Shown one piece after another: positions 3,499 to 29,986 of a stretch of DNA of 37,797 bases. Position numbers and translations under genes: made by a program. The stretch is from Bacillota bacterium (GTDB lineage Bacteria; Bacillota; Sulfobacillia; Sulfobacillales; Sulfobacillaceae): NCBI GenBank assembly GCA_021798975.1, contig JAJZBJ010000010.1, positions 1-37,797 on the forward strand. The letters are read 5' to 3'. The stretch's first letter is position 1, and each line of letters starts with the position of its first letter. Under the pieces are notes generated by a model. That model was given only the letters and a program-made list of their open reading frames with translations. It made no database searches and was not told where the DNA came from.

Positions 3499-4528
3499 GC
3501 GATCCAGTCCCTTCCATCAATGCGATGATGGTCTCTCCTACACGCTCTGCTGGGGTTTCGACGGTGGATGCGTCAATCCACTGGCGCGGGGTACTGCCGT
3601 CCTTGAGGCCCGTGCCCGTCAGTATGCCAACGACCGGACCGGCCGGCAGCAGGCCTTGCTCACGGAGTGCCTTGAGTCCGGCATATGCGGCGGCCGAGGC
3701 GGGTTCCACAAAGATGCCGCCGTGCGCTAACTCCTTTTGGGCGCCCAGGATCTCGTCGTCGCTGACGGCATAAAAACCGCCTCGGGAGACGGCCGCGGCT
3801 TCGAGGGCGTAGGGCTTCGAAGCCGGTTTTCCGATGCGGATGGCCGACGCGATGGTGTCAGGATTGTCAAAGTCATGACCGGCAACCAGGGGACTCGCAC
3901 CCGCCGCCTGAATGCCCAGCATGCGGGGAATGCCGCGGCCGTAACGGCGGAAGCCGTGGAAATAGGCGGAAATATTGCCGGCGTTGCCCACCGGGAGTAC
4001 TAACGCCGCCGGCGCACGATTGAGGTCATCGATGATTTCATAAGCGCCGCTTTCCTGTCCGCGCAACCGCCAGGGGTTGACGGAATTGACCAAGGCGATG
4101 GCCGGGTGGCGCTCGGCTGTCGTGCGGACGACGTCCAGCGCTTGGTCAAAGTTTCCGTCGATGGCGAGCATCTGGGCTCCATGGGCCAGCGCTTGGAGCA
4201 TTTTCTCCTGCGTGACGCGGCCTTTGGGCACCACCACGAAGGACTGGAGTCCCGCACGGGCCGCATAGGCCGCAGCCGAGGCAGCGGTATTTCCCGTCGA
4301 GGCACAGATGACAGCTCTGGCCCCCTCATGGCGAGCCACGGTGACTGCCACGGTCATGCCGCGGTCTTTAAATGATCCGGTCGGATTCGTGCCTTCCAAC
4401 TTGAGGAAAATCTCGCTCGCACCCCAGGTGTTCCAGAACACCAACGGCGTCGAGCCCTCGCCCAAGGTGACCGCCGGGGTGTCCGGCAAGTCCAAGTACG
4501 GACGGTATTGTTCGATGACGCCACGCAT
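3485..4528 (-). CDS. thrC: Threonine synthase
   Basis: A PLP enzyme that converts O-phosphohomoserine to L-threonine, the step after ThrB. The 347-residue protein is of the short bacterial type: LGEGSTPLV near the N-terminus, the PLP lysine in TGSFKDRGMT (K54), a substrate loop CASTGNTAASAAAYAARAG, and a phosphate-binding glycine stretch around LPVGNAGNISAYF. The ATG at 4526-4528 has AGGAGG ten bases upstream; an in-frame ATG at 4564 lacks a ribosome site. thrC is first in the pair and overlaps thrB by 14 bases. I see no T-box or other leader upstream; the space to the next gene is only about 115 bases. Confidence 0.95.
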   Translation of the reverse strand: MRGVIEQYRPYLDLPDTPAVTLGEGSTPLVFWNTWGASEIFLKLEGTNPTGSFKDRGMTVAVTVARHEGARAVICASTGNTAASAAAYAARAGLQSFVVVPKGRVTQEKMLQALAHGAQMLAIDGNFDQALDVVRTTAERHPAIALVNSVNPWRLRGQESGAYEIIDDLNRAPAALVLPVGNAGNISAYFHGFRRYGRGIPRMLGIQAAGASPLVAGHDFDNPDTIASAIRIGKPASKPYALEAAAVSRGGFYAVSDDEILGAQKELAHGGIFVEPASAAAYAGLKALREQGLLPAGPVVGILTGTGLKDGSTPRQWIDASTVETPAERVGETIIALMEGTGSHVAH

Positions 4529-27427: not shown

Positions 27428-27456
27428 AGTATGACCGAGCAGCCGACGATTGTCAA
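27428..27456 (-). promoter_or_regulatory. Strong promoter of the pirin gene
   Basis: On the minus strand TTGACA (27451-27456, perfect consensus) and CATACT (27428-27433) are 17 bases apart, about 30 bases upstream of the start at 27397. Confidence 0.8.
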
Positions 27457-27494: not shown

Positions 27495-28259
27495 CTATGC
27501 GCGGGCGGTGACACGGGTGATGAGATCCGCTGCGACCAGAGGCAGGGATTCGAATCCGGGCTTGGCAAAGAAATAACCTTGCATCAAGTGGATGCCGGCA
27601 TCCCAGAGGTAACGGGCTTCGTCGAGGGTTTCGACTCCTTCGGCGAGCACCATGATATGGAGGCTCTCGGCCAGCACCATCACCGAGCGGATGATGGCTT
27701 GCTTCACCCGGTCGCGATGAACGTCGCGGATGAGATGGATGTCGAGCTTTAACATGTCGGGCTGGAAGTCGGCCAGGGTGTTGAGACCCGAACTGCCGGC
27801 GCCGAAATCATCGAGGGCGGTTAAAAAGCCGTGGGCCCGGTATGCCTGCAGGATCTCCCGCAATTTGGCGGTATCGCGGATTGCCTCGCTTTCAACCACT
27901 TCGAAGATGATTTGGGAAGGCGGGAAATCGACTTCCCGCGCCACCCGCAATGTGGTCTGAAGGCACCTCTGCGGCTCGTACACCGCGTTTGGCAGGAAGT
28001 TAATGTGAAGCCGGGTGTCTAAACCCAGGCGGACACTGGAACGGAGACTACCTTCGCGACACGACTGGTCAAACGCGTACAGTGTTTCGGGTGTGACGGT
28101 TTGCAATACGGTGGCTGCCGACTCGCCGGCCGGCCCCCGCACCAAGGATTCGTAGGCCCAAATACGCCCCGACGTTAAATCGACAATCGGCTGAAAAGCA
28201 AACGCCAAGGGGGCGGGAAAGGGAAGCCGGCATTGTTGGCAGGAGGGCGGGTTTCTCAT
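27495..28259 (-). CDS. EAL-domain c-di-GMP phosphodiesterase
   Basis: A stand-alone EAL domain of 254 residues that should hydrolyse c-di-GMP to pGpG. Catalytic residues are all present: Glu in YESLVRG (ESL instead of EAL), Asn in INFLPNAVYEP, Glu in FEVVESEA, the metal Asp pair in LDDFGAGSSGLN, Lys in MLKLD, Glu in LAEGVET, and Gln in MQGYFFAKP. A CQQC pair precedes the domain, as in many EAL-only proteins. The ATG shares its A with the TGA of the response regulator gene, so translation is coupled. The pairing suggests that the receiver controls the phosphodiesterase through direct contact. Confidence 0.92.
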   Translation of the reverse strand: MRNPPSCQQCRLPFPAPLAFAFQPIVDLTSGRIWAYESLVRGPAGESAATVLQTVTPETLYAFDQSCREGSLRSSVRLGLDTRLHINFLPNAVYEPQRCLQTTLRVAREVDFPPSQIIFEVVESEAIRDTAKLREILQAYRAHGFLTALDDFGAGSSGLNTLADFQPDMLKLDIHLIRDVHRDRVKQAIIRSVMVLAESLHIMVLAEGVETLDEARYLWDAGIHLMQGYFFAKPGFESLPLVAADLITRVTARA

Positions 28260-28720
28260 CAGTCTCTGCCTGAGACCACGGGAGCGGACGGGGCTGCCGC
28301 AGCCTCTGGAAGCCAACTCGCAGGGACCCACCCGGTCCGGCGGTAATGGGTAAGCACGGCGGTCAAATAACTTTCCGAGAACCACTTCTTCGATACGAAC
28401 GTGTCGTCGCCCAACTGCTCCTGCATCGTGGGGTACTGCATAATGTTATCCACGCTGAGGTAGACGACGAGCAACTGCGGATCAGCCTGTTTGAGTCTCC
28501 GGGATACCTCGAACCCGTTGGCGCCGGGCATAAAGATATCGACCAGCGCCACGTCGGGGCGCTGCTCGATCAGTCTCTCAAACTCTGGGGTGCCGCTGGC
28601 GGTAGCCACGACCTCGAATGTGTCGGACTGCCCTAGTTCTTGGACCGCAAACTGCAGGAAATCGGGTTGGTCATCCACGATGGCGATTCGATACTTGTGC
28701 GAGCCGGGTAAAGTTTGCAT
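28259..28720 (-). CDS. Single-domain response regulator
   Basis: A 153-residue receiver with no DNA-binding output domain. The acidic pair is in IAIVDDQPDFLQ, the phosphoacceptor is Asp61 in ALVDIFMPG, and the conserved Lys is in VSKKW. The C-terminal tail is alanine/proline rich. ATG 28718-28720 fits the start of the domain but has no ribosome site; a -10 box ends six bases upstream, so a leaderless mRNA is likely. Its gene overlaps the EAL gene by one base and lies nine bases from the divergent histidine kinase start. It is therefore the probable link between the kinase and c-di-GMP turnover. Confidence 0.88.
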   Translation of the reverse strand: MQTLPGSHKYRIAIVDDQPDFLQFAVQELGQSDTFEVVATASGTPEFERLIEQRPDVALVDIFMPGANGFEVSRRLKQADPQLLVVYLSVDNIMQYPTMQEQLGDDTFVSKKWFSESYLTAVLTHYRRTGWVPASWLPEAAAAPSAPVVSGRD

Positions 28721-28723
28721 AGT
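28695..28723 (+). promoter_or_regulatory. Promoter of the histidine kinase gene (leaderless type)
   Basis: TTGTGC (28695-28700) and CATAGT (28718-28723) are 17 bases apart; the ATG of the kinase follows after six bases. The -10 box contains the start codon of the divergent response regulator gene. Boxes are weak to moderate matches; the geometry is the stronger evidence. Confidence 0.55.
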
Positions 28724-28726
28724 TGT

Positions 28727-28755
28727 ATTATGAAATCCCGATGGCACGGGCGCAA
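28727..28755 (-). promoter_or_regulatory. Promoter of the response regulator-EAL operon (leaderless type)
   Basis: On the minus strand TTGCGC (28750-28755) and CATAAT (28727-28732) are 17 bases apart and the response regulator ATG follows after six bases. The -10 box contains the kinase start codon (28730-28732), mirroring the plus-strand promoter. Confidence 0.58.
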
Positions 28756-29986
28756 TCAATTAGCGCAGAATCTTCTGGCTTACGCAGGACCGTTGACGCG
28801 CGACCAACACGAGTTGTACCGCGAGATTGTGGAAAACGCCCGGTTGGCGGTTGGGGTCCACTGGGTGCAGTTGACGCAATACGTTCCGGATACCGGGGAC
28901 GTTCGACAACTGGCCATTTCCGGCTTTCACTTGCCCAGGATGCGGCGCGCGGCCCGTGCTTTCAGCCGTTTGATGGGCGGTATGCAACTCCTGGATGTGA
29001 CGGCCAATGTTTCGGAGAATGCTTTCGTGCATGGGTTGTATGCCGAGGGGTTGGAAATCGAGGGGCGGGAACGGGATGTGACGGGCCAGCGAGTGCCGCG
29101 CGTCGTGGTCAATCTAGCTGAGTCGGTAGGCATGCGCTGGATGATGGGCTTTCCCCTAAAAGCCGGAGGCCAGGTACGGGGTTCGCTCAATTTCCACTCG
29201 GCGAAGCCTCTGACGTCACGCCAGCGGATTGTGGCCCGGGCTATGACCCGGCAAGTGGAATTGCTCTTCGAAAATGCGGAGCTGTCGCAAGACTTGGCTC
29301 AATCGGTGCAAGACCTCAGAGCGGCCCAAACGCAGTTGATGCTGGAAGAGGATCGGATTAAATCTGAATTGGCTATGGAACTTCACGGAAGAGTCCAGAC
29401 GCGGCTTCTCATCCTGTGGAGGCGCTTAAACCGGGTCATTGCCAGCATGGATCCTGATGATCCTCAGCGGGGGCCGCTCGAAGCCATCGCGGAAAACCTC
29501 GACCAAATCCGGGATGTGGACGTGCGCGGGGTCAGCCATCGCTTAGCGCCGCCGATTCTCGCGGCGGGCCTTTACCCCTCGCTCTTATTTTTAGGCTCGC
29601 TCTATTATCCGGAAATGGATGTGACGGTGACGACCGACCCGATACTGGATCCGCGTGAATACCCGGATTTGCCGCCCGAAGTGCGATTTCCTCTGTATCG
29701 AATCGTCGAAGAAGCCCTAGCCAATGCCTATCACCATGGACATGCCAAACACGCCGGGGTTCATTGGGCATTTAGTGCGGATCATCTGACGCTGACGGTT
29801 CGTGACGATGGGGCCGGGATGAGCGCCGAGGCCGCGGGGGAGGGGCTTGGGCTGGTTGGAATGCGCACACGCGCTCAATACCTGGGCGGTACTTTTGCCA
29901 TCCAGCCGATGCGGGAGGGCGGATGCGAGGTATCGGTCTCTCTGCCGGGATTAGACGCCTGGAAGGAGATGGAGAGCGGTGACTGA
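28730..29986 (+). CDS. GAF-domain sensor histidine kinase (NarL/DesK type)
   Basis: A 418-residue soluble kinase without membrane segments. The first 190 residues resemble a GAF sensor domain (VQLTQYVPDTGDVRQLAISGF, MGFPLKAGGQVRGSLNF). A coiled coil leads to an HPK7-type H-box, ELAMELHGRVQ (His219), then the N-box IVEEALANAYHHGHA and the G-boxes VRDDGAGM and GLGLVGMRTRAQYLGG. Kinases of this type normally pair with LuxR-type regulators; here the neighbour is a receiver-only protein with an EAL enzyme. The ATG lacks a ribosome site and lies six bases from a -10 box. Its stop overlaps the next gene by eight bases. The signal is unknown, presumably cytoplasmic. Confidence 0.9.
   Translation: MKSRWHGRNQLAQNLLAYAGPLTRDQHELYREIVENARLAVGVHWVQLTQYVPDTGDVRQLAISGFHLPRMRRAARAFSRLMGGMQLLDVTANVSENAFVHGLYAEGLEIEGRERDVTGQRVPRVVVNLAESVGMRWMMGFPLKAGGQVRGSLNFHSAKPLTSRQRIVARAMTRQVELLFENAELSQDLAQSVQDLRAAQTQLMLEEDRIKSELAMELHGRVQTRLLILWRRLNRVIASMDPDDPQRGPLEAIAENLDQIRDVDVRGVSHRLAPPILAAGLYPSLLFLGSLYYPEMDVTVTTDPILDPREYPDLPPEVRFPLYRIVEEALANAYHHGHAKHAGVHWAFSADHLTLTVRDDGAGMSAEAAGEGLGLVGMRTRAQYLGGTFAIQPMREGGCEVSVSLPGLDAWKEMESGD

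Follow-up and report, generated by a model that had tools for sequence, protein, structure and literature searches.

A possible bidirectional promoter shared by divergent kinase and receiver genes in Sulfobacillaceae, and a regulator start that is probably leaderless

The locus and its genes

The window, that is, the whole stretch of 37,797 nucleotides that was analysed (contig JAJZBJ010000010.1 of assembly GCA_021798975.1), belongs to a Sulfobacillaceae genome of 2.9 Mb in 192 contigs. According to the list of open reading frames and to Pfam, the gene order around the site is pirin (-), EAL (-), receiver (-), kinase (+) and AlkZ-like glycosylase (+). The receiver gene encodes a stand-alone response regulator, and its ATG (28720) stands back to back with the ATG of the kinase (28730), 9 nt separating them (Table 1). 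The GAF match of the kinase is weak (7.8e-4, below the Pfam cut-off), and we infer that kinase and receiver are partners in a cognate pair. On the regulator side, the receiver stop overlaps the EAL start in a TGATG (28257-28261, -), which suggests translational coupling of these two genes.

Table 1. Genes, promoter-like boxes and candidate start codons around the divergent start region (positions of the window)
Feature	Position	Strand	Remarks
EAL-domain gene of the regulator operon, ATG 28259	27495..28259	-	ORF list; PF00563, 7.9e-48
Stand-alone receiver (REC) response regulator, 153 aa, ATG 28720	28259..28720	-	PF00072, 5.9e-17; 57% identity to S. harzensis ortholog
Proposed kinase -35, TTGTGC, 3/6	28695..28700	+	Within regulator coding sequence
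Proposed kinase -10, CATAGT, 4/6	28718..28723	+	Overlaps regulator start codon; kept in G006 relic; CATACC in S. harzensis
Alternative kinase -10, TATTAT	28726..28731	+	Common to regulator -10; predicted start ~28738, 18 bp from regulator start
Putative regulator -10, CATAAT	28727..28732	-	Predicted transcription start 28720 (A of ATG); S. harzensis counterpart TAATAT-6-ATG
Regulator -35-like box, TTGCGC, weak, 3/6	28750..28755	-	S. harzensis: TTGACT (5/6), spacer 18
GAF/HATPase histidine kinase, start at ATG 28730 or TTG 28793	28730..29986	+	PF02518, 6e-12
TTG, alternative kinase start	28793..28795	+	Aligns with the TTG at which the S. harzensis kinase starts; coding signal jumps

Promoter-like boxes between the start codons

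The initial annotation described this site as a pair of mirror-image promoters, and the letters are as it claimed: on each strand, TTGNGC is followed after 17 nt by CATANT and, 6 nt later, by ATG. Equally, no Shine-Dalgarno-like stretch is present directly upstream of ATG 28720 or of ATG 28730. The reading drawn from these letters is that interlocked promoters of the 10-bp class, with each start codon inside the -10 of the other gene, would produce leaderless mRNAs from 28720 and 28730. The presence of both sets of boxes with their 17-nt spacers and 6-nt gaps speaks for it, as does the fact that ATG 28730 is the sole ATG near the kinase start and is not preceded by a ribosome site. Additionally, divergent starts separated by 10 bp form a common class (PMC12825309). 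However, the boxes are weak, since they reach 7/12 (kinase) and 8/12 (regulator) when scored against the sigma-70 consensus (TTGACA/TATAAT), and neither promoter was listed by a scan of the window at a threshold of 9/12.

The site was also said to have a nearly palindromic core. A perfect mirror image is not supported, and much of the palindrome follows from the two facing start codons alone: ATGs that face away from each other 9 nt apart make CAT...ATG palindromic and provide each -10 with two of its six matches (A2 and T3). In simulations with the spacing given, the chance of both strands reaching the observed scores was 0.0007 (60% GC) to 0.0023 (50% GC), a result that favours the interlocked promoters and is conditional on the spacing and the box definitions as chosen, uncorrected for that choice.

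Both strands of the window hold 412 sites of at least 7/12 (310+88+11+2+1), a background that points to a different explanation, namely, that the regulator promoter is real and that the kinase boxes arose by chance where two start codons face each other in an AT-rich stretch, the kinase being driven from elsewhere. For instance, an 8/12 site on the kinase strand (TGGTCA-16-GATACT, 28668-28695), inside the regulator gene, might serve as its promoter. This explanation seems improbable to us: with transcription from so far upstream, the kinase leader would measure ~28 nt (to the ATG) or ~91 nt (to the TTG), and neither codon is preceded by a good ribosome site.

Comparison with related genomes

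Orthologs were searched with a regulator profile (E<=1e-14) in 42 genomes of the order. The profile found matches in 5 of them, strong ones, besides the window, only in Sulfobacillus harzensis, and a single intact ortholog pair was recovered from the 42 genomes, that of S. harzensis DSM 109850 (contig NZ_JABBVZ010000120.1). In this species, kinase and receiver are divergent and lie between pirin and AlkZ-like genes, as in the window, and the EAL gene is absent from the locus. The kinases of the two loci share 46% identity, and the alignment of the receivers (57%) runs from the first residue. Among the 8 kinase relatives found in the genome contigs, the divergent arrangement is observed only in S. 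harzensis, and in one genome (G008) the relatives of kinase and receiver stand convergent. No ortholog was found in plasmid records, where the matches (171 of 72,556) were all below 60% identity.

Another genome of the same genus (G006) keeps a relic of the locus (L050, G006:C179, ~3969-4415), in which both genes are broken and the start region can still be aligned; the adjoining pirin and AlkZ-like genes are still open. The relic retains CATAGT and both ATGs, a persistence that counts in favour of the interlocked promoters, and 36 of the 37 positions of the core are identical to those of the window. However, a special conservation of the core was rejected, since 63 of the 3063 aligned 37-nt windows, including that of the core, are equally conserved; the block kept with this genome is thus unexceptional.

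The pirin gene offers a well-kept example of a promoter in these genomes. Its boxes are TTGACA-17-CATACT both in the window (27428-27456, -) and in G006, and TTGACA-18-GATACT in S. harzensis, and in each of the three the leader that follows contains a ribosome site (AGGAGG). By contrast, the -35-like boxes of the kinase/regulator site are not so kept.

The regulator start

At the orthologous start, the S. harzensis regulator is preceded by TTGACT-18-TAATAT-6-ATG, which scores 9/12. An in-frame TAA lies 12 nt upstream of this ATG, so that this codon must be the start, with no room for a ribosome site before it. A -10 located ~6 nt before the regulator start is kept between the window (CATAAT-6-ATG) and its one intact ortholog (TAATAT-6-ATG). 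A survey of 424 kb from Sulfobacillus, covering 482 early ATGs, found a site of at least 8/12 located 5-7 nt upstream at only 4 of them, the S. harzensis regulator being one; the window regulator falls outside this sample owing to the overlap of its ORF with the longer EAL frame.

The better leaderless-type promoter of S. harzensis and the in-frame stop just upstream of its start make the regulator half of the site credible. Consequently, of the two leaderless mRNAs originally proposed, that of the regulator gains comparative support, whereas the kinase side of the arrangement has no equivalent in S. harzensis. The genus shows no enrichment of leaderless genes, which gives a leaderless regulator a low prior; with the support of the ortholog, we consider the regulator mRNA probably leaderless.

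The kinase start

In S. harzensis the kinase frame starts with a TTG (2272) behind GAGGAAGG, neither ATG nor GTG being available there, and CATACC is found where the window has the proposed kinase -10, CATAGT. The proposal of this -10 together with a start at ATG 28730 therefore failed the comparison with this species. The lack of the kinase boxes and of an in-frame ATG in that species argues against the interlocked promoters, and the loss of the boxes would be expected if they were accidental in the window.

When the window kinase is aligned with that of S. harzensis, similarity sets in at residue 22, which corresponds to TTG 28793. At this point, the codon score of the window rises from 0.010 (28730-28792, 21 codons) to 0.359 (28793-28855). 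The score of the first segment is low for coding sequence (6% of 251 coding segments score lower, and 22% of 244 out-of-frame segments score higher), which also weighs against a kinase start at 28730 and, with it, against the interlocked promoters. However, the codon score is a weak guide, since in S. harzensis the stretch of 13 open codons ahead of the TTG, with no ATG, GTG or further TTG in it, scores 0.110 as well. The preservation of TTG 28793 as a codon is likewise weak evidence, as TTG accounts for 26% of Leu codons in a sample of the genus, and this TTG has a poor ribosome site, with AGGA only, 3 nt upstream. Kinase translation may thus start at either ATG 28730 or TTG 28793.

Considering these data, we regard the interlocked promoters with two leaderless mRNAs as a possible but rather unlikely arrangement. 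Their corollary, that the -10 on each strand would begin with bases supplied by the start codon of the other gene, neither start being changeable without altering the promoter of the other gene, is doubtful to a similar or slightly greater degree.

A shared bidirectional promoter

The explanation that we favour, with a probability of roughly one half, is that the site is a weak, compact bidirectional promoter shared by both genes, with a leaderless regulator and a kinase transcript that would start at 28738 or 28730. The housekeeping RNA polymerase would use one AT-rich -10 region (~28726-28732) in both orientations. In the direction of the regulator, the first transcribed base would be the A of ATG 28720 or a neighbour of it, and the resulting leaderless mRNA would be translated from its 5′ end. 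In the direction of the kinase there are two options: a start at ~28738 (18-bp class), with translation from TTG 28793 as in S. harzensis, or a start at 28730 (10-bp class), with a leaderless mRNA read from ATG 28730. The polymerase would be unable to occupy both orientations simultaneously. The low predicted strength leads us to expect both genes to be expressed together at a low level, which would fit a cognate kinase-receiver pair.

Several features of the sequence are consistent with the shared promoter. In all three loci, the kinase strand carries a TANNNT that starts 6 nt away from the A of the regulator ATG: TATTAT in the window, TATATT in S. harzensis and TATGAT in the G006 relic. The predicted starts are separated by 18 bp (28720/28738) or 10 bp (28720/28730) in the window and by 18 bp (2187/2205) in S. 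harzensis. It has been described that 18 bp is the most common distance between divergent starts (PMC12825309), and bidirectional promoters have been defined by divergent starts 7-25 bp apart, with a T at -18 and reciprocal -7/-11 positions among their features (PMC10268837). In the 18-bp geometry, the reciprocal pairing of -11A and -7T is observed at 28727 and 28731 in the window and at 2194 and 2198 in S. harzensis. However, this pairing comes automatically with any -10 that has A at -11 and T at -7, and the shared geometry is thus consistent with a bidirectional promoter without being proof of one. In this same geometry, the kinase direction shows the T at -18 (28720; 2187 in S. harzensis) and the regulator direction lacks it in both species; in the 10-bp version it is absent in both directions. 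Against the shared promoter, no good -35 accompanies the alternative TATTAT in the window (the site scores below 7/12), and its predicted start base is C.

The site resembles the bidirectional promoters described by Warman, Grainger and co-workers (PMC12825309, PMC10268837) in its divergent genes, its overlapping putative -10s on opposite strands, its predicted starts 10 or 18 bp apart and the expected binding of polymerase one way at a time. By contrast with the promoters presented in those reports, one or both of the predicted starts fall here on a start codon. We consider the site a single case that plausibly belongs to a known kind.

Mutual exclusion of the two genes

From the occupation of the site by one polymerase at a time, it had been deduced that kinase and regulator would be expressed in mutual exclusion or in alternation, the site acting as a switch. 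Although steric exclusion is plausible here, as at any bidirectional promoter, exclusion or alternation of expression does not follow from it. A cognate kinase and receiver are normally required at the same time, which speaks against a switch. As for published systems, opposed polymerases have been described to exclude each other sterically at bidirectional promoters (PMC12825309), an observation on the side of the switch, but the same source reports that basal activity was too low for competition in all five promoters tested. Moreover, in Mycobacterium tuberculosis, prpD and Rv1129c are divergent and both leaderless, and both are up-regulated in starvation (PMC3898074). That pair is similar to the one discussed here in that a gene and its adjoining divergent regulator are both leaderless, as the interlocked reading would have it here; it differs in being co-induced rather than exclusive, and the accessible portion of that report does not state that the start codons lie inside each other's -10. 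The absence of competition at basal activity and the co-induction of prpD/Rv1129c, as far as these sources describe them, mean that alternation is not the default expectation, and we consider a switch at this site very improbable.

Occurrence in the family and the genus

A family-wide promoter class was considered and rejected, as the core CATANTNNNANTATG is found at 44 sites in 34 genomes of the family, against 38 for the reversed control; this lack of enrichment is a further point against the interlocked promoters. None of the 26 sites examined, out of the 43 others with the core pattern, was a double gene start between two ORFs of at least 80 aa.

A leaderless habit of the genus was similarly rejected. 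[TC]ANNNT was found 6 nt before the ATG at 4 of 227 intergenic starts (1.8%) and at 1.5% of 1662 internal ATGs, and the four include the S. harzensis regulator and the kinase of the window. With TANNNT at gaps of 6 and 7 nt, there were 3 and 3 of 630 candidates in the genus (background 4.96 per gap) and 4 and 7 of 596 in the stretches of a further genome, G011 (background 7.54), with no peak in either. The Deinococcus MP1 control showed a modest peak, with 3 and 3 of 177 (background 0.88). A further run with [TC]ANNNT gave 3 and 1 of 319 in the genus and 5 and 11 of 297 in G011 (background 7.19). All these counts rest on a crude ORF caller, and a small leaderless class would escape detection, since even the control was enriched just ~3.4-fold. 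Leaderless-looking starts were seen elsewhere in the family, at L103 10253 (-, TACAAT-7-ATG) and L120 5075 (-, TATAAT-6-ATG).

In the Firmicutes, leaderless genes have been reported mainly in Lactobacillales and Mycoplasma, as far as the accessible text of PMC3160421 describes. The regulator start is similar to the leaderless genes of that work, with TANNNT ~12 nt before the start codon, a likeness that is clearest in S. harzensis; it differs in that, in Sulfobacillus, it would be an exception and not a habit of the genome. Our literature searches found no work on leaderless genes in Sulfobacillus, no more than a single mention of transcription start and promoter in this genus, and none joining "widespread divergent transcription" with leaderless.

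The site is a clean example of how short the DNA serving a divergent kinase/receiver pair may be, and presents a probably leaderless start that is kept between species in a genus otherwise devoid of a leaderless signal. If the interlocked reading were true, a coding start and the opposite promoter would each restrict the other at the level of single bases, and this in a lineage with few leaderless genes.
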